In this document: positions 3,240 through 62,124 of the stretch, one piece after another
Numbering within the stretch: the first letter of the stretch is position 1
Layout: each line of letters opens with the position of its first letter
Notes under the pieces: generated by a model
The model's input: only the letters and a program-made list of their open reading frames with translations
Told to the model about the DNA's origin: nothing
Databases searched by the model: none
Source of the DNA: Cellulophaga sp. BC115SP
GTDB taxonomy: Bacteria; Bacteroidota; Bacteroidia; Cytophagales; Spirosomataceae
DNA: 64,000 nucleotides
Assembly: GCF_009905545.1 (NCBI RefSeq)
Contig: NZ_JAAALB010000017.1
Location: 62,001 to 126,000, forward strand
Direction of reading: 5' to 3'
Position numbers and translations under genes: made by a program

Positions 3240-3269
3240 AAACGGTAAGGCTTTGTCTTACCGTTTTTT
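3240..3269. terminator. Bidirectional rho-independent terminator
   Basis: Arms AAACGGTAAG (3240-3249) and CTTACCGTTT (3257-3266) with a 7-base loop, followed by a T run on the plus strand and preceded by A residues that give a shorter U run on the minus strand. It sits between the convergent metallophosphoesterase and SMR genes and could serve both. Confidence 0.8.
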
Positions 3270-3272
3270 GTT

Positions 3273-3641
3273 TTAAGCCTTTCCCGATGTTTTGAGCCCA
3301 ACAATACCAATGGCAATTAGGGCTATCCATCCGATTTCTTGCCAAACCCATTTTTCATGTAAAATAAAAACATCTGCTAGTTTGATAAAAACCAAGGCAA
3401 GGGCTGTCCAAACGGCCATAGCCACGGCTGTAGGAAGCATTTTGAGTGCCAGCGCAAAAAAGTAAATATTCCCTATTCCAAAAAAGATATATCCCAGTAA
3501 AGGTGAAATAAGCCCCCAAGTATTCATGGAGAAAATGGTATCCCATTGAATCGTTTTGATTTTCTGAAAATCAAGATATTTTAAAGAAAATGCCCAAGCA
3601 GCTTCAAATACCGCGGCAATTAATAAGTAAATCCATTGCAT
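3273..3641 (-). CDS. Small multidrug resistance (SMR) family transporter
   Basis: A 122-residue four-helix membrane protein of the SMR type (EmrE/SugE/Gdx relatives), proton-coupled exporters of cationic compounds or guanidinium acting as dimers. The start MQWIYLLIAAVFEAAWAFSL carries the family's membrane glutamate in helix 1 (Glu13) followed by W.FSLKY. Helix 3 has ALKMLPTAVAMAVWTAL, matching the family's AYAVWTG-type segment, and the last helix is WIALIAIGIVGLK. It is slightly longer than the usual 105-110 residues because of the segment at about 28-45. Subtype and substrate cannot be told. Confidence 0.8.
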   Translation of the reverse strand: MQWIYLLIAAVFEAAWAFSLKYLDFQKIKTIQWDTIFSMNTWGLISPLLGYIFFGIGNIYFFALALKMLPTAVAMAVWTALALVFIKLADVFILHEKWVWQEIGWIALIAIGIVGLKTSGKA

Positions 3642-3644
3642 GAA

Positions 3645-3718
3645 TTATTGAGTGATTGAGTGGGTTGTGATTGAGTGATTATTTAAAAACCGCAGTAGAG
3701 ACGCAATGTTTTGCGTCT
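3645..3718. repeat. Family B composite repeat with GAGACG hairpin, copy 1
   Basis: GAGTGATTGAGTG-type direct repeats, then ATTTAAAAAC, then a hairpin with arms AGACGCAA (3699-3706) and TTGCGTCT (3711-3718). The same order of elements is found at 58838-58912, so the unit is about 75 bases rather than just the hairpin. Confidence 0.75.
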
Positions 3719-3753
3719 TATGCCAAGCGAATACACATGCCTTACAGCTATTA

Positions 3754-4617
3754 TCATCTTTTTATTTTCTCCAAAAACCAGTTCCAAAGATTGATTCTGA
3801 AGAAATAATACTTTTTGAATAGCGGATATTTCAAAAGCTTTTTTTCCTCAAATCTTTTGACTGAAAAGGCATGTTGTAGGAAATAATCTTTGGGGTAATC
3901 ATAGTATAATCCCCAGTTTTCAGAGGCATTCCCTGGCTTATGGTTGGGGTCATATACTGTTTTAAAGAGATAATCCCATACAGCAAATTTGGTAGAGAAA
4001 TTGGCGTGAAATACCTCTTGATAATTGGCATGATGCCAAAGATGTAATTCAGGCGAATTGAAAAGGTATTTCCATTTACCTAATTTGACATCGATATTGC
4101 TATGAATAAACATCCCAAACATGGCATCTAATAAGGCTTTTATAGGTAATACTTCTGGCGATGCCCCTAGCAAAATAATCGGTAAAAACTCAATGCTTTG
4201 ATTAATAATAATCTCGACAATATGAGAGCGTGAGCCACTCAGAAAGTCTACATTTTTACCCGAATGATGTGCCTCATGTGTCCGCCAAAAGAAGGCATTG
4301 GCGTGTTGAAATCGATGAAACCAATAGATATAAAAATCATGTGTTACCAGAAAAAAGAGCACCTGTAATGCCAAAGGCCAATGACTCACCGACACCCAAG
4401 AAGACCAAGGATAAGCCTGATGAATCGGCTCGATAATGCCTTGAAAAATAAGAATTTTGAGAAAATAGCTTTGGATAAGAGTATACCACACTAAATCAAC
4501 CCAAAAGCCCTCCCTGAAAAATGGGAGTCCTTTGCGATATGGAAAAAGTCTTTCGAATAAAATGATAAGCACAATCCAAACTACCAAAATGGAAGTAGTG
4601 ATTTCAACCGTTGTCAT
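3754..4617 (-). CDS. Fatty acid hydroxylase / sterol desaturase superfamily protein
   Basis: Integral membrane di-iron hydroxylase-type protein. The three histidine clusters are present: HDFYIYWFHRFQH, HEAHH and HLWHHANY. Hydrophobic segments at the N-terminus (around VEITTSILVVWIVLIILF) and before the first His cluster (LALQVLFFLV) fit a multi-pass protein with a cytoplasmic metal site. I chose the ATG at 4617; an upstream in-frame GTG at 4644 abuts a hairpin and is less likely. Bacterial relatives act on lipids, carotenoids or alkylglycerols, so the substrate is open. It lies just downstream of the sugar cluster but is separated by a hairpin, so I treat it as a separate unit. Confidence 0.88.
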   Translation of the reverse strand: MTTVEITTSILVVWIVLIILFERLFPYRKGLPFFREGFWVDLVWYTLIQSYFLKILIFQGIIEPIHQAYPWSSWVSVSHWPLALQVLFFLVTHDFYIYWFHRFQHANAFFWRTHEAHHSGKNVDFLSGSRSHIVEIIINQSIEFLPIILLGASPEVLPIKALLDAMFGMFIHSNIDVKLGKWKYLFNSPELHLWHHANYQEVFHANFSTKFAVWDYLFKTVYDPNHKPGNASENWGLYYDYPKDYFLQHAFSVKRFEEKKLLKYPLFKKYYFFRINLWNWFLEKIKR

Positions 4618-4644
4618 TTGAATGAGGGTTCCGTTTTTTAGCAC

Positions 4645-4676
4645 AAAGACCTATAGAGTTGAATCTATAGGTCTTT
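4645..4676. terminator. Hairpin terminator at the end of the sugar cluster
   Basis: Arms AAAGACCTATAGA (4645-4657) and TCTATAGGTCTTT (4664-4676) are perfectly complementary around a 6-base loop. The long T run is on the plus strand, but the minus strand also exits into TTT. The position just after the NeuB-like gene suggests it ends the minus-strand cluster. Confidence 0.7.
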
Positions 4677-4739
4677 TTTGAGCCATGAACAATCAGCTTT
4701 CTCCTGTCGGTTTTTCGCCCGAAAGCTGAAAGCCGACAG

Positions 4740-5645
4740 CTATTTATTATACTCAGCAGAAATATGCTTTCTCAATTTTTTCATCTGACCTACTTCAGAA
4801 TCATATACTTTTTTGACACCATCACCACTTGCTGTTTCTACGTCGCGGATATCTTTTACTAGGCGAGACAAACCTTGTGGTTCAACCGACGCCGCATGGT
4901 CAGAACCCCACATAGCACGATCAAGCGTAAAGTGTCTTTCTACAAAAGTAGCCCCCATTGCTACCGCTGCCACAGTAGTAGCCAAGCCAGTTTCATGTCC
5001 AGAATACCCAATAGGATGATTAGGGAACATCGTTTTTAGGGTATGAATCATGTTCAAATTCAGCTCTTCTGGCTTACAAGGATAAGCAGATGTAGCGTGA
5101 GCAATCGACAAAGGATATTCAGGGTCAAAATCAAGGATAAAACGAACTGTTTCTACGATTTCATTTTGGGTCGACATTCCTGTTGAAATCATCAACGGGC
5201 GACCCGTTTTCAAAATACGCTCAATCAATTCAAAGTCTGTCAACGATGCTGAAGCCAATTTGTACAAAGGCGTTTCGAACTGCTCCATAAAATCTACAGA
5301 TTCTACATCCCAAGCCGATACAAACCAATCCATTCCACGCTCTTTGCAATATTGGTCAATGATAGAAAACTCTACTGCGCCAAATTCAGTCTTACGTTTG
5401 TAGTCGATATATGACATACGTCCCCACGGTGTATCACGCATGATTTCCCATTGGTCGCGAGGCACACATACTTCTGGAGTTCTTTTTTGAAATTTCACCG
5501 CATCCACTCTAGCATTGACTGCCTCGTCGATGAGTTTTTTAGCAATATCAATCGAGCCATTGTGATTGATACCAATTTCTGCAATGATGTAACATGGCGC
5601 ACCTTCGCCAATTACTTTTCCTGTGTTAAGTTCAATTGATTTCAT
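4740..5645 (-). CDS. NeuB-family ulosonic acid synthase lacking the SAF domain
   Basis: TIM-barrel synthase of the sialic-acid synthase family, which condenses phosphoenolpyruvate with an aldose to form a ulosonic acid. Visible: AEIGINHNG (22-30), VDAVKFQKR, ISTGMS (153-158), GYSGHETG with metal-ligand-type His217, ERHFTLD (236-242) and SDHAASVEP (248-256). The protein stops at 301 residues right after the barrel, whereas NeuB, PseI and LegI proteins normally run to about 330-350 residues with a C-terminal antifreeze-like SAF domain that covers the partner active site in the dimer. It is the last gene of the cluster, after a KdsC-like phosphatase. Family is sure; the product sugar is not identified and need not be a nine-carbon acid. 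Confidence 0.9.
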   Translation of the reverse strand: MKSIELNTGKVIGEGAPCYIIAEIGINHNGSIDIAKKLIDEAVNARVDAVKFQKRTPEVCVPRDQWEIMRDTPWGRMSYIDYKRKTEFGAVEFSIIDQYCKERGMDWFVSAWDVESVDFMEQFETPLYKLASASLTDFELIERILKTGRPLMISTGMSTQNEIVETVRFILDFDPEYPLSIAHATSAYPCKPEELNLNMIHTLKTMFPNHPIGYSGHETGLATTVAAVAMGATFVERHFTLDRAMWGSDHAASVEPQGLSRLVKDIRDVETASGDGVKKVYDSEVGQMKKLRKHISAEYNK

Positions 5646-5663
5646 GCGTTGTTATTAGTTTTT

Positions 5664-5735
5664 GAGGCATTAGGCAAAGAGGCATCAGGCAAGGAGTATT
5701 TATATACTGATGACTAGTGCCTCTCCCCTAACCCC
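5664..5735. repeat. Family C repeat in the sugar cluster
   Basis: GAGGCATTAGGCAAAGAGG and a near-direct repeat GGCATCAGGCAAGGAG, then TATACTGATGACTAGTGCC. The words match 3056-3091 and 8694-8753. It fills nearly all the space between the NeuB-like and KdsC-like genes. Confidence 0.6.
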
Positions 5736-5740
5736 TTGTT

Positions 5741-6253
5741 TTACGCTTCTAATAAAATTTCAGTTATCACTTCTGGAGTCTGTGCTTCTAGAATAAGTTC
5801 AGCTAGTTCGCGGAAGCATCCTTCGCCACCTTTAGCTTCGCAGATATAGTCTACTTGACTACGAACTTGCTTAAGGGCGTCGGCAGGACAAGCCGTAAAG
5901 CCTACGTGCTTCATGATTTCGAGGTCATTGACATCGTCGCCGATATAGGCAATTTGTTCGGGCAGGATATTACGATTCACCAATATTTGTTGGAGTACCG
6001 CTAGTTTGTCTTTGATACCCATGTGCAATTCGGTAATCTTGAGTTTTTCAGCACGTTTGCGTACAGAAGGCGAAAGCTCGCCAGTGATAATGCCCGTTGC
6101 AATTTGTCTGTTGCGTAAACGTTCAACACCCATCCCATCACGGATATTGAATTTTTTCAATACTTCTCCGTTTTCTCCATAATACACCCCTGCATCGGTC
6201 AATACCCCATCACAGTCGGTAAGGAGCAATTTTATATGTTGTAATTTTTCCAT
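5741..6253 (-). CDS. KdsC-like HAD phosphatase
   Basis: A 170-residue cap-less (C0) HAD phosphatase resembling 3-deoxy-manno-octulosonate 8-phosphate phosphatase and the phosphatase part of bacterial CMP-sialate enzymes. Motif 1 is LLTDCDGVLTDAG with Asp13 and Asp15, motif 2 is ITGE, motif 3 Lys is in GIKDK (Lys82) and motif 4 is YIGDDVNDLE with Asp106/Asp107. Size and motif spacing match the tetrameric KdsC family. With a PEP-condensing synthase next door, the likely job is dephosphorylating the ulosonic acid phosphate before activation. Whether it serves Kdo or a cluster-specific sugar is inference from context. Confidence 0.88.
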   Translation of the reverse strand: MEKLQHIKLLLTDCDGVLTDAGVYYGENGEVLKKFNIRDGMGVERLRNRQIATGIITGELSPSVRKRAEKLKITELHMGIKDKLAVLQQILVNRNILPEQIAYIGDDVNDLEIMKHVGFTACPADALKQVRSQVDYICEAKGGEGCFRELAELILEAQTPEVITEILLEA

Positions 6254-6314
6254 TGAGTAATTTGTGGTTGAACCAAAGAATAATGAGTGTAGTCAGAAAC
6301 GCTATGGCTTTTGC

Positions 6315-6412
6315 TGATTTGGGATTGCTGATTTCGGAAATATTGAAAAAACTTCGTTTTTATTTTTCATAATGTTTTATACTTCCGCAATCCCACATCC
6401 GATATCCGAAAT
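6315..6412. repeat. Family A palindromic repeat, copy 2 (reverse orientation)
   Basis: Arms TTTGGGATTGCTGATTTCGG (about 6318-6337) and CTTCCGCAATCCCACATCCG (about 6382-6401). Read on the opposite strand this matches copy 1: the right arm here corresponds to the left arm there. It lies between the SDR and phosphatase genes of the sugar cluster. Confidence 0.75.
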
Positions 6413-6446
6413 GGACAATTTATAACATCCTTTACACACAGTTAGG

Positions 6447-7286
6447 TTAAATGCTTGTCCACCCACCATCGACCACTAGGTTGGCGCCCGTCATATAAGC
6501 CGAAGCATCAGAAGCAAGGAATACCAATGCACCTTGATAATCGTTAGGCTGAGCCATACGACCGAGTGGAGTTTTATTTGTGTAGTTTTTGATAAAAAAT
6601 TCGTTCTGACCGTTTTCAACACCTCCTGGCGATAGCGTATTCACACGCACGCCTTTATGTCCCCAATAGGCTGCCAAAAAGCGAGTGAAGTTGAGAACAG
6701 CGCCTTTGGTTGTTGGATACGAAGGAGATTTGAAAAAACTCTGTTCCCCATTTTCGTCACAGTAAATTTGTTGATCAGGCCCCACCATACCGTAGGTAGA
6801 AGCGATATTGATAATGCTACCAGCACCCGCCTCAGCCATTACTGAACCAAATATCTGCGAGCATAAAAAGACCCCAAGGACATTTACTTCAAGTGATTTT
6901 CGGAAAGACTCCAAAGGATAGTTTTCGAAGGCGGACAATTCTTTTGCCATCAATGGATTTTCGAACATATCGTTGATAGCCGCATTGTTGACTAACACAT
7001 CGATTGAGCCATATTTTTCGAGAATAGTCGCTTTGGCTTTTTCTAAACTATTAGGGTTTGTTACATCGAGTTTTAGACCGATATGTTTTTCTCCTAATTG
7101 ATTAGCCAAACCTTTGGCTTGTAATTCTAGAACATCGGCTACTACCACGTTGGCGCCTGCGGCAGCGAGTGCTTCGCAGTGTTTTTGTCCAATCAATCCT
7201 GTAGCACCTGTAACAATAGCTGTTTTACCTGCCAATGAGAACAATTGAGGAACAGCCAAAGAGGGATTCGAGATAAGCTGATTCAT
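6447..7286 (-). CDS. Short-chain dehydrogenase/reductase of the sugar cluster
   Basis: Classical SDR oxidoreductase of 279 residues. The Rossmann nucleotide motif TGATGLIG is at 26-33, NNAA at 100-103, catalytic Ser163 in NIASTYG and the YxxxK pair Tyr190/Lys194 in SYPTTK. The C-terminus ends YMTGANLVVDGGWTS, the usual SDR tail. An insertion of about 20 residues between Ser163 and Tyr190 is longer than in most fatty-acid-type SDRs and is typical of sugar-cluster SDRs. Only two bases separate its start from the stop of the upstream aminotransferase gene, so the two are probably translationally coupled. Likely reduces or oxidises a sugar intermediate; the exact substrate is unknown. Confidence 0.9.
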   Translation of the reverse strand: MNQLISNPSLAVPQLFSLAGKTAIVTGATGLIGQKHCEALAAAGANVVVADVLELQAKGLANQLGEKHIGLKLDVTNPNSLEKAKATILEKYGSIDVLVNNAAINDMFENPLMAKELSAFENYPLESFRKSLEVNVLGVFLCSQIFGSVMAEAGAGSIINIASTYGMVGPDQQIYCDENGEQSFFKSPSYPTTKGAVLNFTRFLAAYWGHKGVRVNTLSPGGVENGQNEFFIKNYTNKTPLGRMAQPNDYQGALVFLASDASAYMTGANLVVDGGWTSI

Positions 7287-7288
7287 GA

Positions 7289-8632
7289 TTAGGCTTTCTG
7301 CAAAGCAGGTTTGATATTGTAGTTTGAGGTTTTTCTAAAAACAGCTTCCAATACTTCTCCACGAATCAATGGCATTGCATCTTTATCAAGAATCGCTTTT
7401 TTCATGATTGGCATCACATCACGATAAGCAGACAAAGTGTAAGCAATATCTTCGTCGCTATGGCTGTAGCACATATTATGAAAACCTGCCCATAGGATAC
7501 CACGCTTAATCATTTCTTGTTGCATGAGCGTTTTTAGCTCTAAGCCATTGCCAGCTTCGGGACTAAATGTTACCATAGAGCGACATGGATAGCCGATACA
7601 CTTGGTAAATGCTGATAAGCCAAACTCCTCTGCAATCTGGTTATATCCTTGTTGTAAAATCGCGCCTTTTTCAGCTAAATAAGCTGGGACATTTTTTTCC
7701 TGTAATTCACGAATGGTTGCAATACAAGCTGCCAATGACAAGGTTTCGCCACCAAAAGTGGTATAACTGAATACTTCTTTATTGAAAAGCTCCATCACAT
7801 CGGCACGACCCGTCAACAAGGCAATTGGCATTCCATTAGCACAAGCTTTTGAATAAACCGCTAAGTCTGGTTTTACTTGGAAATATTCTTGCGCACCACC
7901 TAAGGCAATACGAAAGCCTGTCCACATTTCATCAAAAATCAACAAAGTGCCATTTTCACGACAAGCTTCGGCTAATTCTTGAAGGAAATTATTTTTAGGC
8001 GCTTCAAAAATAAATGGCTCTAAAATCACTGCTGCTACGTCTTCGTCTAAGGCTGCACGAATACTCTCGATGTCGTTATATTCGAAAGTATAAGTCATAT
8101 TTTGAGTACTTTCGGGTACACCTGCATTGCGACTTGTAATGCCGATATACCAATCATGCCAACCGTGATAGCCACAGCAAAAGATTTTTTCACGACCTGT
8201 AAAAGCACGAGATACACGAATCGCTGCCGAACAGACATCAGCTCCCATTTTGGAGATTTTGACTGCTTCTGCATTTGGAATAACATCTTGAATCAGTTCT
8301 GATAATTCTACTTCTAAAGGGTGCGTCAGAGAGAACGAAATGCCATCCGCTAATTGGCTTTGGATGGCCTCATCAACTGCTGGATAGCAATACCCTAAAG
8401 ATACTGGACCTATCGCAGCGTTGTAGTCGATATACTCGTTGCCATCGACATCCCAAACGTGTGAGCCTTTTCCTTTTACCAGATACTTCGGTGCAATACC
8501 TTTGGTAAATTGTCCTGGACCTTTCGCTAGAGTTTGGGTAATAGGTTTTTGAACTGCCAAAGCACGTTCATATAAAATATCCGAGATGGTAATATTAGGA
8601 TAATGGTCGTTGAATTTTACTCCGTTGGGCAT
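7289..8632 (-). CDS. Class III PLP aminotransferase, glutamate-1-semialdehyde aminomutase-like
   Basis: 447-residue fold-type I PLP enzyme resembling glutamate-1-semialdehyde aminomutase (HemL) but probably not HemL itself, because it sits in a sugar cluster. Motifs: HVWDVDGNEYIDY (58-70), the GYHGWHDW cofactor segment (154-161), LIFDEMWTGF with the PLP Asp (231-240) and the internal aldimine Lys262 in VYSKACANG. Family members in polysaccharide loci transfer or shift an amino group on a sugar or short aldehyde. Co-directional with, and almost touching, the SDR gene, which suggests a reduction/amination pair on the same intermediate. The 166-base gap upstream carries family C and B repeats. 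Confidence 0.88.
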   Translation of the reverse strand: MPNGVKFNDHYPNITISDILYERALAVQKPITQTLAKGPGQFTKGIAPKYLVKGKGSHVWDVDGNEYIDYNAAIGPVSLGYCYPAVDEAIQSQLADGISFSLTHPLEVELSELIQDVIPNAEAVKISKMGADVCSAAIRVSRAFTGREKIFCCGYHGWHDWYIGITSRNAGVPESTQNMTYTFEYNDIESIRAALDEDVAAVILEPFIFEAPKNNFLQELAEACRENGTLLIFDEMWTGFRIALGGAQEYFQVKPDLAVYSKACANGMPIALLTGRADVMELFNKEVFSYTTFGGETLSLAACIATIRELQEKNVPAYLAEKGAILQQGYNQIAEEFGLSAFTKCIGYPCRSMVTFSPEAGNGLELKTLMQQEMIKRGILWAGFHNMCYSHSDEDIAYTLSAYRDVMPIMKKAILDKDAMPLIRGEVLEAVFRKTSNYNIKPALQKA

Positions 8633-8689
8633 GGCATTGAATAAATTATGATTCTCGAAATGCGATGTTTTTTATGTTAAAATTAAGTG

Positions 8690-8790
8690 CTCGGCTTTAG
8701 GCTTTACGTATTAGGCAAGCATAACCTTTTGCCTAATGCCTACAGCTTACGGCTTAATGCCTAAAAGACCTTGCGTGCAACGTCTCTACG
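8690..8790. repeat. Family C inverted pair followed by family B fragment
   Basis: Left arm 8694-8718 and right arm 8729-8753 share TATTAGGCAA / TTGCCTAATG and further imperfect complementarity across a 10-base spacer. Directly after it comes TGCGTGCAACGTCTCTACGG (about 8768-8787), a family B half-hairpin. Together they fill the gap between the aminotransferase and transketolase genes. Confidence 0.65.
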
Positions 8791-8798
8791 GATGGGGA

Positions 8799-9737
8799 TT
8801 ATTCAGCAAATTCAGAGGCTACGATATGTGGCTGAATAGCTTCAGTATGATAACCCAAAATACGTTCTGCAATTTGTTTTCCTGTAAATCCTTCGTATTC
8901 TAGCACCTCTTGCAAGCGTGCTGGTTTAAACCATTTTTCAAATAATGCAATGGGTAAAACAGGTGCTTGTATCTGATTTTTCAAGAAAATTTCTGCAACA
9001 ATTGAATACAAACCTCCTGTAACAAAATGGTCTTCAATGGTTACTAACAAATCTGTTTTTTGCGTTAAATCTACAAGATAAGCCTCGTCAATAGGTTTGA
9101 GACTACGAAGATTGACGATACCTACAGACTTGCCTTCTGCTCTAAGAATTTCGGCAGCAATCAGCGTTTGCTCAAGCATAAAACCGTAGGTCAGCAAGGT
9201 AATATCTGTACCTTCAGCAATAACTTCAGCTTTGCCAATTTCAAAGTGTTTTTGATGTTGAAAAGAGGTAGGACGGTGACAAATACGAATATAAGCTGGA
9301 TGTTTAGAGGCAAGAATTTCGGGTAACATAATGGCCAAATCTTGCTCATTGGCAGGTGCAAAAACTTGCATATTAGGAATCCCACGCATCAGAGATACGT
9401 CTTCCACAGCTTGGTGTGTGGGACCATTTCCGTCTGATAAAAAACCTGGGATAAAGGCACTCAACTTGATTGGTAAATTGGGGATTCCTGCATCGGTGCG
9501 CACAAACTCAAACGCACGCATTGAAAGAAAAGAAGCCAATGCGTGTAATACAGGCACTCTTCCACGTAATGCCAGCCCTGCGGCGGCACCTACCATACAT
9601 TGTTCGGTAATTCCTGTATCGATAAATCTTTTACCTAAAACTGAAGGCAAATTACGAATCAAAGCACGGTTTTCGGCTGTCATGACTACGATACGCTCGT
9701 CGTCGATGGCTATATTTTTTAGTAGTTCTTCGTACAT
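8799..9737 (-). CDS. Transketolase C-terminal subunit (split enzyme)
   Basis: 312-residue protein with the pyrimidine-binding and C-terminal domains of a transketolase. DTGITEQCMVG holds the conserved catalytic Glu45 that activates thiamine diphosphate, with GLALRG and the HQAVED/RGIPNMQV segments following. It needs the N-terminal subunit encoded just upstream (9846-10703) to bind thiamine diphosphate at the interface. Split transketolases of this kind are common in archaea and in some bacterial sugar or secondary-metabolite clusters, where they transfer a two-carbon ketol unit. Its place in a polysaccharide cluster suggests a specialised acceptor rather than the pentose phosphate pathway. 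Confidence 0.9.
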   Translation of the reverse strand: MYEELLKNIAIDDERIVVMTAENRALIRNLPSVLGKRFIDTGITEQCMVGAAAGLALRGRVPVLHALASFLSMRAFEFVRTDAGIPNLPIKLSAFIPGFLSDGNGPTHQAVEDVSLMRGIPNMQVFAPANEQDLAIMLPEILASKHPAYIRICHRPTSFQHQKHFEIGKAEVIAEGTDITLLTYGFMLEQTLIAAEILRAEGKSVGIVNLRSLKPIDEAYLVDLTQKTDLLVTIEDHFVTGGLYSIVAEIFLKNQIQAPVLPIALFEKWFKPARLQEVLEYEGFTGKQIAERILGYHTEAIQPHIVASEFAE

Positions 9738-9804
9738 AAATTCAATTAGTTAATTGTGAATGAGCGAGTTGTGAATTAATAACAGAAAACTCAGCCACTC
9801 AATA

Positions 9805-9825
9805 AGACGTTGCGGTGCAACGTCT
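9805..9825. repeat. Family B hairpin between the transketolase subunits
   Basis: Perfect hairpin with arms AGACGTTGC (9805-9813) and GCAACGTCT (9817-9825) and loop GGT, continued by CTAC. It lies in the 108-base gap between the two transketolase subunit genes. Confidence 0.7.
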
Positions 9826-9845
9826 CTACGGGATATACCTTCCTT

Positions 9846-10703
9846 CTACCTTACCACCAAGGTTTCTGAGACTAAGGTAGTCGTGTGTTCGCCGTGGAGT
9901 TCTTGCAAAAGTTGCTCGATTTCGGTAGATGAAAAATTACAAAACCAACGGTCAGCACGAGCCTCGATACTTGGCAAGCCTTTTCCACGAATCGTATCGG
10001 CGATAATTACACTTGGTTTATGTTTTTTGTATGGCAAATCCGCAAATGCTTCTTCCAAATCCAAGAAATTGTGTCCATCAATGCGACATACTTCCCATCC
10101 AAAAGCTTCAAATTTATCTACTAATGGCTCTAGTGGAATGAGATCTTCTGTTGCCATATTGGCTTGGAAATTATTACGATCTACCACAAAAATAAGGTTG
10201 TCCAATTTGTGTGCGTGTGCTACCATAACAGCCTCCCAAACCGAACCTTCATTAAGCTCGCCATCGCCCAAGATACAGACCACACGATTTTGTGAACCAC
10301 TAATTTTCAAATCCATTGCCACACCAACTGATACCGCTGGCAAATGTCCCAATGAACCCGAATGAAACTCAATACCAGAGATTTGAGTGTTGGGATGCCA
10401 ATAGATATGGTCGTTGGTAGATAAGTGATTTTGCAGTCTCTCTGCTTCTAAAACACCCATTTCGACCAACGTACCATAAAGGGCAGGCACATCGTGCCCC
10501 TTCGACAAAAACAAATAGTCTCTGTCGGGGTCATCCAAGTTAGTAGGGTTTAAATTGAGGAATTCAGTATAGAGGTAGACGATTAAATCTGTTGCTGAAA
10601 GCGATGCACCCACAAAACAGCCTCCGTCAGTCGAAAGCTTGATGATATGCTCACGTACCCGCAAAGCTGTTTGCTCCAATTTTTTCAATTTTATCTCGTT
10701 CAT
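9846..10703 (-). CDS. Transketolase N-terminal subunit (split enzyme)
   Basis: 285-residue thiamine-diphosphate domain of a split transketolase. The cofactor motif is GDGELNEG (146-153) followed about 30 residues later by the NN pair at 177-178 (VVDRNNFQ). SKGHDVPALY (68-77) and SGSLGHLPAVSVG (115-127) are the usual transketolase active-site segments. It is followed by the matching C-terminal subunit and preceded by the cytidylyltransferase gene, all on the minus strand. The pair should form an alpha2beta2 enzyme; donor and acceptor sugars are not deducible. Confidence 0.9.
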   Translation of the reverse strand: MNEIKLKKLEQTALRVREHIIKLSTDGGCFVGASLSATDLIVYLYTEFLNLNPTNLDDPDRDYLFLSKGHDVPALYGTLVEMGVLEAERLQNHLSTNDHIYWHPNTQISGIEFHSGSLGHLPAVSVGVAMDLKISGSQNRVVCILGDGELNEGSVWEAVMVAHAHKLDNLIFVVDRNNFQANMATEDLIPLEPLVDKFEAFGWEVCRIDGHNFLDLEEAFADLPYKKHKPSVIIADTIRGKGLPSIEARADRWFCNFSSTEIEQLLQELHGEHTTTLVSETLVVR

Positions 10704-10867
10704 GGGGATTTTATGGAGTGAATTGCGATTGAGAAAATGTGTAACTTTTCAATCTAATCCCTCTTTTATATTTTTAAAGAATTATCTATTCTTAGAAATG
10801 CAATGCTTTGTGGCTTACACCAAATAAGCCAATATAAAGAGTATTCTATTTTCTAACAACCTCTCTA

Positions 10868-11725
10868 TTAATCATTTGGATTCTGCACTTCTGGGGAAGA
10901 CGCAATACCTTGCGCATCTACCTGAACCGTCATAGAGGCATCGATAGTTTTTAACTCGCCCAAATGATTTCTATACCAATTGACACCTGCCCATTGGGCA
11001 TTAAGTGCCATAATTTCAGGCTTTTGAGTCAATAATGTTAAAATATCTTCCAAAGAGAATTCAGGCTTGAGAGGATATAACTCTTCAAAAATCCGCTTAA
11101 TAAATTGGTAGTCTTCATGATAATCTATGGTAAATCTGTGTGACATCGAATAATCTAAACCTGTTTCCCAAAGTACATTTCCCAACTTAAACTTCTCTGG
11201 ATTTTCCCAGAAATAAGGCGTGGTATGCTCTAGTTCCAAAGGGCGAACGGCCTCCTCCCAAGCTTTGGTTAGGGCTTTAAAACTCATAATTTCTACATCA
11301 TTGCCATCGGGATAAGTAGCAGGATGTAAGTTACTTATATAATCATATTGCTCTGGATTGGACAAATACACATCTAACACTTTATCCACAATACGAGGGT
11401 CGATAAGTGGACAATCTGACGGTATTTTGAGAACAACATCTGCCTCTGTCAGATGTCCTACTTGCCAATGCCTGTCGAGTAAGTCATTAAGGCTTCCACG
11501 GTAGCAATCGATTTGATATTTTTTACAAAAACGCTCTATGACATCGTCTTGAGTATGGTCAGAAGTTGCAATAACGATATGTGATATACGCTTTACTCTT
11601 CTAAGACGCTCTATCATGCGATAAAGTAGGGGCTCTTCTAAGATAGGAAGCATTACTTTACCTGGCAATCGGCTCGAACTCATACGAGCCTGTACAACGA
11701 TGGTGATAACTGGCGTTTGACTCAT
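10868..11725 (-). CDS. SpsF-like cytidylyltransferase (sugar nucleotide activation)
   Basis: Nucleotidyltransferase of the CMP-sugar synthetase / SpsF family. The N-terminal TIVVQARMSSSRLPGKVM is the nucleotide-binding signature, followed by YRMIERLRR, IATSDHTQDD, CYRGSLNDLLDR and LKIPSDCPLIDP, the conserved Asp-containing metal segment. It should activate a ulosonic or related sugar as a CMP ester. I chose the ATG at 11725 because it overlaps the upstream stop codon as ATGA, a strong coupling signal; the longer frame would begin with TTG. The C-terminal 40 residues have no motif I recognise. Length 285 residues fits the family. Confidence 0.88.
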   Translation of the reverse strand: MSQTPVITIVVQARMSSSRLPGKVMLPILEEPLLYRMIERLRRVKRISHIVIATSDHTQDDVIERFCKKYQIDCYRGSLNDLLDRHWQVGHLTEADVVLKIPSDCPLIDPRIVDKVLDVYLSNPEQYDYISNLHPATYPDGNDVEIMSFKALTKAWEEAVRPLELEHTTPYFWENPEKFKLGNVLWETGLDYSMSHRFTIDYHEDYQFIKRIFEELYPLKPEFSLEDILTLLTQKPEIMALNAQWAGVNWYRNHLGELKTIDASMTVQVDAQGIASSPEVQNPND

Positions 11726-12777
11726 GCGATTTCGCAAAGACTAGGTTTAATAATGGGTGTTGCAGTGTATTGGTACTGTTTGGTAAATTCTTCTTTTTTA
11801 CCATTAAATTCCAAAAAATCACGGCAAACACGAGCTATATTTTGCGCTGAAGTCCCTCCGTTTTGAATAGGGGCTAAGCGGTTTAACTCTTCGACATCAA
11901 AATATGAATGTACTTTTTTCCCCAAGGCTATACCCACATATACAAGCGTCGAATATTGTGTAATCAATTCATCACAATTGGCAATCATGTGATTAACATT
12001 GCCATTGGTATAGATGAAAGTACCTTCGGGTGTGTTTTCTTTGATTTCGGCAATGGCTCTTTCAAAAATCTCGTTGGGATGCAATTTGAATACCAATGGT
12101 CGTCCGTTGGCGATTTCAACACAACGTTTGATAAAGCCTATTCTATTGTCTGGTCGGTAACACTCACGAATATCCGAAGTTGTTACCAACACATAGTTTT
12201 TCATATCGAGGGTATTATCCACAAACTTTTCACAGTTATCAAAATTAGGCATACCTGTGACCATAATTTTGTGAGCTTGGGTTCCCATTTTCGAAAAATA
12301 TCCTTTGTAGCCCTCCGATGCAGCGCAATACACATCGCAAATATTGGAAGTACCGTTCAGCGATGTTCCAATAGCCAAATAAGGAGGAAGATGTAACTTT
12401 TTGACCCATTTACTAATAGTGGTGCATTCGTCTATCATGCCTTCTTGTACCCACAAAGTTTTGGTTTGAAGCATTCTGTCAGGAATTATCAAATCCGAAC
12501 AGTAAACCACCAAATCATAACGGTTCTTTTGGGCTTTGTAGTCCATTTGTAAACCGTGCTCAGCGCAATAAGTCTCCGAATTACGACGAAATTGCCCTGC
12601 TAATACAGTACGGTCGGCCCAAGTAGTGTTTTCAATCACCCAGTTCACCAATGGCGAGTCTGCAAAAATCTGACTAAACCAACAATCATACTCAGGCAAT
12701 TGCTGAGCGATTTGGTGCATCTGCGAGGTTTGGTTAATCGACCCTGTGATAAACAGTATTTTCTTTGGTATGTGCAT
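11722..12777 (-). CDS. GT-B-fold glycosyltransferase/epimerase-like protein of the sugar cluster
   Basis: 351-residue protein without a signal peptide. It begins with a Rossmann-like strand (KKILFITGSIN) and its C-terminal half has KLHPNE, then ITQYSTLVYVGIALGKKV, which resembles the nucleotide-sugar-binding half of UDP-GlcNAc 2-epimerases and CDP-glycerol/capsule-type transferases. I therefore infer a GT-B fold, but no catalytic residue is certain. It is the first gene of the minus-strand cluster and is translationally coupled (ATGA) to the SpsF-like gene, which suggests it uses or prepares the CMP-sugar. It could equally be a hydrolysing epimerase that supplies the synthase. Confidence 0.65.
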   Translation of the reverse strand: MHIPKKILFITGSINQTSQMHQIAQQLPEYDCWFSQIFADSPLVNWVIENTTWADRTVLAGQFRRNSETYCAEHGLQMDYKAQKNRYDLVVYCSDLIIPDRMLQTKTLWVQEGMIDECTTISKWVKKLHLPPYLAIGTSLNGTSNICDVYCAASEGYKGYFSKMGTQAHKIMVTGMPNFDNCEKFVDNTLDMKNYVLVTTSDIRECYRPDNRIGFIKRCVEIANGRPLVFKLHPNEIFERAIAEIKENTPEGTFIYTNGNVNHMIANCDELITQYSTLVYVGIALGKKVHSYFDVEELNRLAPIQNGGTSAQNIARVCRDFLEFNGKKEEFTKQYQYTATPIIKPSLCEIA

Positions 12778-13030: not shown

Positions 13031-14044
13031 ATGAAATTTACATCTGTCGAAGAAATAATAGAGCATTTCAGTTTAAATGCACAAAGTCGTGAAGATATTA
13101 AAAAGATATTGAAGAATTTGATTAAAGAGTATCATCCTGACAAAAATATGGGAGACTTTCAGGATGATACTCAGAAAAGTAAATTCCACGAAATAAACTC
13201 AGCTTTAGAGTATTTAAATAGTGCATCATCAGAAGTATTGCAATCAAAGCAAAATGAAATGTTAGCCTTGGTTAATATTTTGACAGAGCTTTCTTCAATA
13301 AAAAAAGAAGAAGTAAAAGTTGAAAATTTCGAAGCAAAAAATTCTTCTTTGAAATCAAAATTGAACGATAGTGTTAATACCTTTCACAAAAAAAATATAA
13401 CGCCTAAAATCACGAGTCTAGCACTAACCTCAGTACTGACAACTATTTGGTTATTTCCTTCAATTGTTAAAGATCATCCAATCCTTAAAACTCTATATAC
13501 TTATAACGAAGAGTTTACTCTCGTATGGATAATATGCCTGTCTTTGACGGCTATAATTTGGTTTTTCACCAAGTATATTGAAAAAAAAGACGAAATGATT
13601 AAGCAAAGCTTTAAGTTAGAATCAACGCAAAATAACATATTTCTACTCTACACCATATGGATGAGAGCAACATGTCGAAATTATACAATGAGTGAGGATA
13701 ATAAATTTATTGCTTTATTTACAAAAGAAGACTTCATTTACTTTTTAATGAATCGATTTAGTATTTTGGATACTCATGCGGAAGAAATAGAATTACTCTC
13801 GTCGCGTTATGAAAGAATAAAGCTGGTTGAAGAAATAGAAAATCATTTAAAGTATAATCTTAGGAAAAATAAATTAAAGACCATAAGACCATTAAAGCTT
13901 TTTCCTGTAGCTGGAGAAATTGATATAGAGACAGCTCAACTTATATCCGACTTACTTATCGAAAGACTTATAACAAAAGAGGTTATTAGTAAAACTGGTA
14001 CCAAAAGTCTAAGTGATACATTCCAATTTGCTTACGATTATTAA
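13031..14044 (+). CDS. Orphan membrane protein with N-terminal J domain
   Basis: 337-residue protein whose first 65 residues form a J domain: a helix with LKNLIKEY, the HPD motif at 35-37 (YHPDKN), then KFHEINSALEYL. J domains stimulate DnaK-type chaperones. There is no glycine/phenylalanine region, zinc finger or DnaJ substrate domain. A lysine-rich linker (about 95-125) leads to two hydrophobic segments, about 127-146 and 161-180, so it is probably a membrane protein with the J domain in the cytoplasm. The C-terminal 150 residues are charged and helical, with no recognised family. The gene is very AT-rich and stands alone between the sugar cluster (divergent) and a convergent gene. Function unknown. 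Confidence 0.75.
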   Translation: MKFTSVEEIIEHFSLNAQSREDIKKILKNLIKEYHPDKNMGDFQDDTQKSKFHEINSALEYLNSASSEVLQSKQNEMLALVNILTELSSIKKEEVKVENFEAKNSSLKSKLNDSVNTFHKKNITPKITSLALTSVLTTIWLFPSIVKDHPILKTLYTYNEEFTLVWIICLSLTAIIWFFTKYIEKKDEMIKQSFKLESTQNNIFLLYTIWMRATCRNYTMSEDNKFIALFTKEDFIYFLMNRFSILDTHAEEIELLSSRYERIKLVEEIENHLKYNLRKNKLKTIRPLKLFPVAGEIDIETAQLISDLLIERLITKEVISKTGTKSLSDTFQFAYDY

Positions 14045-60564: not shown

Positions 60565-62124
60565 ATGAAAAGAATATTCATTGCTGCATCTTTGGCACTT
60601 TTCAGTTTCGCTGCAAGCGCTCAAAGAAATACCTTATTAGAACAATCATTTTGGAGAAACCAACCAAATGCTGAAGCTGTAAAAGCTGAGGTAGCAAAAG
60701 GCAGTAACCCTTCTGAACTTAACCGTCAAGCGATGGATGCTGTAGTAATGGCCATCAACTCTGGCGCGCCGAACGAAACCATCAAGTATTTGTTGGAACA
60801 ACCTGGAAATGATGTAAACAAAATTACTCACGATGGTCGTATTTATTTGCACTGGGCTACAGCAAAGGGCAATATCGAAATCATGCAGTTGTTAATCGAC
60901 AAGGGTTCAAAAGCAAGTATGGTTGATGCTCATGGAACTACTCCATTAAACTTTGCTGCTGGCAACGGACTTACACCAGAAGTAATCGACCTTTGTGTGA
61001 AAGCTGGAGCAAATTTGAAAAAAGACGTAAACCAAGACGGTGCAAACGTTTTATTACTAGCTGTTGCTGGAGATAAAGATTTGGCAATCACTAATTATTT
61101 GGTATCAAAAGGTTTAGATATTAAAAGTGTTGACAAAAACGGAAATAATATTTTTGGTTATGCCGCTCGTAGTGGAAACGTTAACCTTTTGAAAGCCTTA
61201 GTACAAAAAGGTATCACGCCAAACGACAACGCTATTGTGGTTGCATCGCAAGGAGGTAGAAGAGGAACAACCCTTAGTTTAGAGTTTTTTGAATACTTAG
61301 AAAGTTTAGGAGTAAAACCTACAGCGACAACTAAAGCTGGCGAAAACGTTTTACATTTCTTAGTTCGTAGACCTAATCAAAAGGAAATTATCGAGCATTT
61401 CTTGGCAAAAGGTGTTAATGTAAACCAAGCAGACGAGGAAGGTAATACTCCGTTTATATTTGCAGCGGCATCTAACAGAGATTTAGCTACCTTAGGTTTA
61501 CTTGCATCAAAAGTATCAAACATCAATCAGACCAACAATAAAGGAGAATCGGCTCTTTCACTAGCTGTAAAAGGAAACTCTCCTGAAGTTGTTAAGTTTT
61601 TGATAGAAAAAGGTGCTGATGTAAAAGTAACAAACAAAGACGGTGAAAACTTGTTAGCCTATTTGGTACAATCTTATAGTGCAGGTGGTTTTGGCGGTCC
61701 TGGAGGGCCACAAGGTGCTCCGCAAGGCGGACCTCAAGGTGGTGGTGAGGGTCGTGGTGGCTTTGGGCCAAAAACAGAAGACTTTGACGCCAAACTAAAA
61801 ATGTTGGAAGAAAAAGGATTAACAGCCAGCACTCCACAAAAAAATGGCAATACCTTATATCACTTGGCCGTTATGAAAAACGACTTAGGTCTTTTAAAAC
61901 GTATTCAGGCACTAGGTATTGACGTAAATGCAAAAAACTCGGAAGGAATCACTGCGCTTCACAAAGCAGCAATGATTGCTAAAGACGATACCGTTATGAA
62001 ATACTTGGTATCTATTGGTGCTAAAAAAGAAGCCGTTACTAATTTCAACGAAACAGCTTTTGATTTAGCTTCAGAAAACGAATCACTTTCAAAATCTAAA
62101 ATATCTATCACTTTTTTAAAGTAG
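60565..62124 (+). CDS. Secreted ankyrin-repeat protein
   Basis: 519 residues with a signal peptide (MKRIFIAASLALFSFAASAQ), so the repeats act outside the cytoplasm. About ten ankyrin repeats are visible, for example DGRIYLHWATAKGNIEIMQL, HGTTPLNFAAGNG, EGNTPFIFAAASNRD, KGESALSLAVKGN and EGITALHKAAMIA. At residues about 372-403 a Gly/Gln/Pro-rich segment (GGFGGPGGPQGAPQGG and more) interrupts the array between two repeats. Ankyrin arrays bind proteins; the partner is unknown. It is only four bases from the DUF2271-like gene and therefore co-translated with it. Confidence 0.9.
   Translation: MKRIFIAASLALFSFAASAQRNTLLEQSFWRNQPNAEAVKAEVAKGSNPSELNRQAMDAVVMAINSGAPNETIKYLLEQPGNDVNKITHDGRIYLHWATAKGNIEIMQLLIDKGSKASMVDAHGTTPLNFAAGNGLTPEVIDLCVKAGANLKKDVNQDGANVLLLAVAGDKDLAITNYLVSKGLDIKSVDKNGNNIFGYAARSGNVNLLKALVQKGITPNDNAIVVASQGGRRGTTLSLEFFEYLESLGVKPTATTKAGENVLHFLVRRPNQKEIIEHFLAKGVNVNQADEEGNTPFIFAAASNRDLATLGLLASKVSNINQTNNKGESALSLAVKGNSPEVVKFLIEKGADVKVTNKDGENLLAYLVQSYSAGGFGGPGGPQGAPQGGPQGGGEGRGGFGPKTEDFDAKLKMLEEKGLTASTPQKNGNTLYHLAVMKNDLGLLKRIQALGIDVNAKNSEGITALHKAAMIAKDDTVMKYLVSIGAKKEAVTNFNETAFDLASENESLSKSKISITFLK

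Follow-up and report, generated by a model that had tools for sequence, protein, structure and literature searches.

Several routes to activated ulosonic acids resemble in part the one considered here. In the Kdo8N (8-amino-Kdo) pathway of Shewanella, an oxidoreductase and an aminotransferase (KdnA/KdnB) aminate the finished ulosonic acid before its activation with cytidine monophosphate (CMP). The route from mannose 6-phosphate through Kdn 9-phosphate and Kdn to CMP-Kdn is known, as the available part of PMC6200933 describes, and according to excerpts of PMC7371886 an SpsF-type domain replaces NeuA in one or more known pseudaminic acid (Pse) clusters. Here we analyze a cluster of ten genes on the minus strand (3273-12777) of a 64,000-nucleotide stretch of Cellulophaga sp. 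BC115SP, hereafter the window (positions 62,001 to 126,000 of contig NZ_JAAALB010000017.1). The ten genes form a conserved, operon-like unit. They may produce a glycolipid of the membrane whose head group is an unusual amino-nonulosonic acid, a scheme to which, as a whole, we give a probability of 0.5 at most. In full-text literature under open licence no description of this ten-gene cluster or of such a pathway was found, which is not proof of novelty, and the accessible parts of papers mentioning both transketolase and nonulosonic describe no such cluster.

A conserved ten-gene unit

The genes of the unit, in their order of reading, and a palindrome beyond the last one are as follows.

11722..12777, minus strand: GT-B-fold protein, predicted glycosyltransferase for a CMP-sugar (AlphaFold2 model, Foldseek, invariant QEG, HP and Ser276)
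10868..11725, minus strand: SpsF-type cytidylyltransferase, predicted CMP-ulosonate synthetase (CTP_transf_3, PF02348, 102.9 bits)
9846..10703, minus strand: transketolase-like N subunit, thiamine-diphosphate binding (Transketolase_N, 103.2 bits)
8799..9737, minus strand: transketolase-like C subunit (Transket_pyr and Transketolase_C)
7289..8632, minus strand: class III aminotransferase, PRK06209/GSAM-like (PF00202, 163.6 bits)
6447..7286, minus strand: SDR, gluconate-5-dehydrogenase-like (PF13561, 168.7 bits)
5741..6253, minus strand: KdsC/YrbI-type HAD phosphatase, predicted nonulosonate-9-phosphate phosphatase (TIGR01670, 167.2 bits, cut-off 106.95)
4740..5645, minus strand: NeuB-family synthase dependent on phosphoenolpyruvate (PEP), without a SAF domain (PF03102, 252.8 bits)
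3754..4644, minus strand: fatty-acid-hydroxylase-family membrane di-iron protein, newly added to the cluster (PF04116, 96.6 bits)
3273..3641, minus strand: SMR-family four-helix membrane protein, predicted flippase, newly added (PF00893, 37.7 bits)
3240..3266, no strand assigned: palindrome 7 bases beyond the SMR stop codon (consensus match only)

A NeuB scan of genome contigs gave at least 575 confirmed matches, from which the best 80 loci were kept by NeuB similarity; the presence counts of the KdsC-NeuB neighbours are conditional on this choice. By record title, these loci belong to Bacteroidota, Ignavibacteria, Chloroflexi and Myxococcota, and Mucilaginibacter and Hymenobacter are among the genera. 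A preliminary description had named the eight families from GT-B to NeuB, and the search for their co-occurrence found them together in 40 of the 80 loci. Their order (GT-B, SpsF, transketolase N, transketolase C, aminotransferase, SDR, KdsC, NeuB) is identical in 40/40, and they lie on a single strand in 39/40, NeuB being inverted in L049. Fusions are also present among the 80 loci, KdsC with NeuB in 16 and SpsF with the transketolase N subunit in two (L064 and L066).

Presence per locus was called by tblastn with a threshold set family by family in the 59 loci that have at least 8.5 kb before and at least 2.5 kb after NeuB, while 21 with too little flank were omitted. The GT-B protein, SpsF and the aminotransferase were each found in 48/59, both transketolase subunits in 45/59, the SDR in 49/59, KdsC in 51/59, the hydroxylase in 42/59 and the SMR protein in 33/59; all ten genes occur together in 26/59. 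For comparison, three neighbours of the cluster in the window were counted as controls (DnaJ-like 0/59, GH1 0/59, phosphoesterase 1/59). The DnaJ-domain membrane-like protein at 13031-14044, beside the cluster, thus lies outside the unit. Eight relatives were read directly: six have the ten genes (L117, L118, L119, L120, L122 and L124), L121 is without the SMR protein and L123 without KdsC. No KdsC was found near NeuB in eight loci that are otherwise nearly complete. Among the intercalated genes inspected nothing suggestive recurs, apart from a GNAT gene in L122. In Mucilaginibacter aquaedulcis (L045 and L127) a fused KdsC-NeuB gene stands apart from the remaining cluster genes.

The same picture emerged from 241 genomes of the order that had been sampled independently of NeuB. 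The transketolase C subunit (E <= 1e-70) was found in 15 genomes and the aminotransferase (E <= 1e-120) in the identical 15, NeuB (E <= 1e-70) in those 15 plus G052 and G186, and the hydroxylase (E <= 1e-60) in 16, namely the 15 cluster genomes and G052. In G101 the hydroxylase and the cluster are on different contigs, so its link with the cluster is not mere adjacency. Chance co-location was ruled out by the conserved order, the fusions and the phyletic co-occurrence.

The eight minus-strand open reading frames (ORFs) first named, at 4740-12777, are all open; seven matched their families by profile search, and the GT-B protein was placed by its predicted structure. The count of eight was too small, since the conserved unit runs on to 3273 with the hydroxylase, which follows NeuB, and the SMR protein, which follows the hydroxylase. 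Adjacent genes at 4740-12777 are spaced by -4 to 193 bases. The SpsF ORF as listed has a TTG start and extends to 11737; the likelier start is the ATG at 11725, whose 4-base overlap with the stop codon upstream of it reads ATGA. The palindrome is terminator-like on the plus strand and has a weak T tail on the minus strand. A promoter scan found 35 candidates against 27.7 expected and added no information.

Proposed pathway to a nonulosonate glycolipid

In the proposed pathway, NeuB would join PEP to a hexose 6-phosphate, of which mannose 6-phosphate is the simplest choice, and KdsC would strip the phosphate from the resulting nonulosonate 9-phosphate. The SDR would oxidise a hydroxyl and the class III aminotransferase would convert the carbonyl to an amine. 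Close to the activation step, the remodelled transketolase might make or break a C2 unit, its substrate being a sugar without phosphate, and SpsF would make the CMP-sugar. The GT-B protein would transfer the sugar onto a lipid, the fatty-acid-hydroxylase-family protein would hydroxylate the lipid with O2, and the glycolipid would be flipped across the membrane by the SMR protein, whose place is taken in other phyla by one of PF03706 type. The roles of NeuB, KdsC and SpsF are predicted from their families. Those of the SDR/aminotransferase pair, the GT-B protein, the hydroxylase and the SMR protein are less certain predictions, while the transketolase step and the order of oxidation and amination, transketolase action and activation are guesses.

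The product is very probably a CMP-activated ulosonic acid. That synthase, phosphatase and cytidylyltransferase belong to one CMP-ulosonate pathway, as initially proposed, is borne out by the conserved order and by the 16 KdsC-NeuB fusions. PF03102 and PF02348, the broad mark of nonulosonic acid biosynthesis, occur in one locus here and together in all 40 eight-family loci, and the nearest solved chain to SpsF is 6oew (E 8.5e-42). The view that the product is not standard N-acetylneuraminic acid (Neu5Ac) or Pse is supported too: NeuB scores 262.3 bits against the Neu5Ac synthase equivalog TIGR03569 (cut-off 399.65) and 200.2 bits against the Pse synthase equivalog TIGR03586 (cut-off 340.25). 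Both identities were rejected, each cut-off being missed by about 140 bits. No second NeuB homologue was found in the window genome at E <= 0.001.

The motif MWG.D is present in 80/80 NeuB homologues. In ten loci with just KdsC and NeuB, the NeuB protein carries it and is 62-67% identical to that of the window, and in loci that bear the aminotransferase the identity is 61-78%. From this similarity and the shared motif, NeuB probably uses one and the same acceptor, a common hexose phosphate, in the full clusters and in the KdsC-NeuB-only loci, and amination therefore probably comes after the synthase step or is separate from it. In the Chlorobi loci L090, L098, L102, L103, L105 and L110 just KdsC and NeuB of this subfamily are present, with other conserved neighbours; perhaps these green sulphur bacteria have a simple pathway of the Kdn kind.

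KdsC is best aligned to the Kdn-9-phosphate phosphatase 3e81, which we take to be BT1713, and to its mutants 4hgq and 4hgr. The Glu59/Lys70 pair of the window protein, which presumably sets substrate recognition in Kdn-9-phosphate phosphatase, was found in 68/68 KdsC homologues, 48 with the aminotransferase and 20 without. This marker favours a nine-carbon ulosonic acid made through the 9-phosphate, and we regard such a route as quite probable.

A lipid-linked product is somewhat favoured, because of the hydroxylase-family partner, the SMR/PF03706 partners and a Chloroflexi GNAT homologous to a palmitoyltransferase-adjacent GNAT. The fatty-acid-hydroxylase family acts on lipids, and its invariant His motifs are present in the PF04116 protein. 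It scores 116.8 bits against the OlsE ornithine-lipid hydroxylase NF052566, whose cut-off is 475. The SMR protein is present in 41/80 loci, and a PF03706/HpnL-like membrane protein in five SMR-free loci; the two never occur together, and several loci have neither. The PF03706 protein lies directly before the GT-B gene in L083, L107, L109 and L111 (9-59 bases ahead of the GT-B match), whereas in L074 it follows GT-B by three genes. A GNAT of 371-376 residues follows NeuB in three Chloroflexi loci and in L080, and its Mucilaginibacter homologue adjoins a serine palmitoyltransferase (746.7 bits, cut-off 640). The polysaccharide-locus setting of the preliminary description found no such support: the conserved extra partners are lipid-hydroxylase-family and flippase-like membrane proteins, and neighbour clustering of 835 ORFs found no polysaccharide genes conserved around the cluster.

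The AlphaFold2 model of the GT-B protein has a mean pLDDT of 91.7 and a predicted GT-B fold. QEG, HP and Ser276 are invariant in 30 aligned homologues, and we assume that motifs of the QEG/HP/Ser type mark CMP-sugar transferases of this fold. The protein reached no Pfam or NCBIfam cut-off.

Several points weigh against the scheme. The nearest structures to the GT-B protein, a predicted glycosyltransferase, are 2-epimerases, at a TM of only about 0.5. The phosphatase scores 169.6 bits against NF058599 (Kdn-9-phosphatase), about 10 bits below the cut-off of 180, and the Glu/Lys pair also occurs outside these clusters, as the 20 of 68 homologues without the aminotransferase show. No such transketolase was found at E <= 1e-40 in the genomes of L084, L101 and L108, which do have the rest of the core; the transketolase is thus not essential to the core. 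Nor is the hydroxylase, since it is absent genome-wide (E <= 1e-25) in five of the eight genomes tested (L079, L087, L089, L094 and L111, three of them Chloroflexi) and present in L096, L083 and L107. Its model had no Foldseek match, and a sequence search found no relative in the PDB. In L032, a contig (105-1563) of a Flectobacillus metagenome-assembled genome (MAG), NeuB is followed directly by the SMR gene, with no hydroxylase between. The mutual exclusion of SMR and PF03706 proteins is confounded with ancestry, as the loci differ in phylum.

Transketolase, amination and competing explanations

Residue roles in the transketolase pair were carried over, as an assumption, from the E. coli, yeast and human enzymes. 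The alignments include close relatives, so their 46, 47 and 60 sequences are not independent observations, and both fused SpsF-transketolase proteins were left out by the length limit. In the N subunit, position 30 is Phe in 46/46 and positions 253/254 are Trp and Phe/Tyr in 47/47; both control transketolases of the window genome have His at these two sites, which presumably contact the donor sugar in canonical transketolase. In the C subunit, position 96 is Ile, Val or Phe and position 104 is Asn (each 60/60). At these positions control C154 and 6yaj carry His and Asp, which we take to be substrate-channel residues of the canonical enzyme, while control C170 is without both too. Ser at position 26, present in both controls, occurs in 1/60. 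Compared with canonical transketolase, therefore, neither the N-subunit His residues nor the C-subunit His/Asp pair were found. The thiamine-diphosphate apparatus is kept (GD of the GDG motif 46/46, catalytic Glu45 of the C subunit 59/59), as is His108 of the C subunit (60/60). The enzyme is probably active on a changed substrate, probably no sugar phosphate. A pentose-phosphate role is unlikely because the active site is remodelled family-wide; it was rejected on this ground and because the window genome has two further split transketolases. Mucilaginibacter aquaedulcis has a cluster-type transketolase elsewhere in its genome.

In the preliminary description an unusual aldose is made first, by transketolase, aminotransferase and SDR, and NeuB would then extend it to a sugar of a surface polysaccharide. 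The gene set is indeed conserved, and transketolases release aldoses in rifamycin-type pathways to 3-amino-5-hydroxybenzoic acid (AHBA). We nevertheless consider this order of events unlikely. The synthases of the ten KdsC-NeuB-only loci are as similar to that of the window, with the same motif, as those of distant full clusters. The transketolase has lost residues that bind phosphorylated ketoses, yet the phosphatase suggests a phosphorylated acceptor. It is fused to SpsF in two loci, it is missing from three genomes, and the cluster has no conserved polysaccharide surroundings.

Alternatively, the transketolase-like enzyme may act on a keto intermediate of the activated sugar and attach a two-carbon branch there, so that the amino-ulosonate becomes branched or longer. 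Two-carbon branching is known from YerE (yersiniose) and AviB1/B2 (avilamycin). The SpsF-transketolase fusions of L064 and L066, the lost phosphate-site residues, with Asp changed to Asn in 60/60, and an SDR that could supply the ketone all fit this idea. However, two fusions of neighbouring genes are weak evidence for a common substrate, and clusters free of transketolase exist, so that this branching is also improbable in our judgement.

Under the glycolipid scheme, an amine on the product is fairly likely, because the aminotransferase is conserved and GNATs occur in L122, in three Chloroflexi loci and in L080. In L122 the GNAT gene lies between those of the aminotransferase and the SDR. The aminotransferase scores 364.5 bits against PRK06209 (GSAM, NF004856), below the cut-off of 486. 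The SDR stands beside KdsC-NeuB even without aminotransferase and transketolase, for example in L074. This Saprospiraceae variant (L074:8290-20827), which is without those two enzymes, contains SDR, KdsC and NeuB, followed by GT-B, a Gfo/Idh oxidoreductase, a cytidylyltransferase and the PF03706 flippase-like protein. In L125 (5382-13824) SpsF adjoins a PRK06209-like aminotransferase and a third enzyme in a cluster that looks pseudaminic-type by ORF size and order; this may be an extra amination module within a Pse cluster.

The sugar might instead be loaded by the GT-B protein on polyprenyl phosphate, flipped by the SMR protein and used to decorate lipopolysaccharide (LPS) or protein. ArnE/ArnF flip undecaprenyl-linked 4-amino-4-deoxy-L-arabinose (L-Ara4N), and both the SMR family membership and the amino-sugar setting recall them. 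Against this stand the Chloroflexi MAGs with the cluster (L087, L089 and L094), since Chloroflexi are not known to have LPS, and the hydroxylase, a member of a lipid-acting family; an ArnT-like transferase was not noticed, though the genomes were not searched for one. We hold this use of the sugar to be quite unlikely.

A further reading keeps the nonulosonate as head group and assigns transketolase and aminotransferase to the lipid, as makers of a sphingoid-like base without serine palmitoyltransferase. The thiamine enzyme would take an aldehyde that is neither polar nor phosphorylated, for example a fatty aldehyde, and join a C2/C3 unit to it; the resulting ketone would be turned into a 2-amino-1,3-diol by the aminotransferase. 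Engineered transketolases gain aliphatic aldehydes through changes at these site positions, and in biocatalysis 2-amino-1,3-diols are made by a known cascade of transketolase and transaminase. The identical distribution of the two enzymes (15/241 genomes), the hydroxylase and flippase-like partners and the ceramide-locus-family GNAT in Chloroflexi are in keeping with it. In the window genome three hits to serine palmitoyltransferase were found, none passing the cut-off and the best (38%) being a KBL, which favours this reading and weakens ceramide as a general acceptor. A BioF/Kbl/serine-palmitoyltransferase superfamily enzyme of the window genome (G000:C1:157870-158961), which passes no cut-off, might make a sulfonolipid or a sphingoid base. 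Cluster (15) and palmitoyltransferase (16) overlap in 0/241 genomes, where about 1 is expected by chance, which is not significant. However, in other clusters for ulosonates (L125) related aminotransferases accompany SpsF, the aminotransferase is present in three clusters that are without the transketolase, and in Mucilaginibacter the cluster and a serine palmitoyltransferase share one genome. Lipid-building by these two enzymes is thus very doubtful.

Finally, that the GT-B protein is a sugar-nucleotide 2-epimerase supplying the acceptor, and no glycosyltransferase, is highly unlikely: its Epimerase_2 match is weak (19.8 bits, cut-off 30.6) and 2-epimerases (UDP-GlcNAc) are the majority of the top 50 of 1778 Foldseek matches, but with TM of about 0.4-0.57 only, with TagF and a CMP-bound capsule polymerase also among these top matches, and with other residues at the catalytic Arg, Glu and His positions of 2-epimerases.

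Significance and comparison with known systems

If the glycolipid scheme is true, membrane lipids headed by amino sugars akin to sialic acid would be an overlooked class in bacteria, found across Bacteroidota, Ignavibacteria, Myxococcota and Chloroflexi. These lipids could play a part in predation and in contact with hosts, as well as in membrane charge and cationic-peptide resistance. For biocatalysis, the pairing of a class III aminotransferase with a natural thiamine enzyme whose site is remodelled is of interest as well. Flectobacillus is close to the window, as L032 shares with the window NeuB (84% protein identity), SMR (53%), phosphoesterase (76%) and GH1 (70%). We know of no gene for the glycosphingolipid of Flectobacillus. 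The accessible part of PMC5155239 reports large amounts of this unusual lipid in Flectobacillus, a near relative of the window genome. The structure of its sugar is not given in the available portions of PMC5155239, PMC10626005, PMC10191378, PMC10383236, PMC3463246, PMC8366399 and PMC8895605.

The cluster shares with the Kdn pathway of Bacteroides thetaiotaomicron and Prymnesium the PEP synthase, a KdsC-like phosphatase with the Glu/Lys pair, CMP activation and the 9-phosphate route. However, the Kdn pathway needs no aminotransferase, SDR or transketolase, and in the cluster the cytidylyltransferase is SpsF-type and the phosphatase falls below the NF058599 cut-off. The NeuB family and CMP activation are also common to the clusters for Neu5Ac, Pse and legionaminic acid (Leg), but none of the ten genes is a homologue of NeuC, PseB/C or LegB/C, and NeuB here is without SAF. 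The Kdo8N pathway resembles the cluster in its pair of oxidoreductase and aminotransferase, and differs in its enzyme families, its eight carbons and the lack of transketolase, hydroxylase and flippase partners. The split transketolase of Carboxydothermus (6yak/6yaj) has the same two-subunit organisation and belongs to the same sequence family as that of the cluster, although the active-site His and Asp positions are changed in the cluster family.

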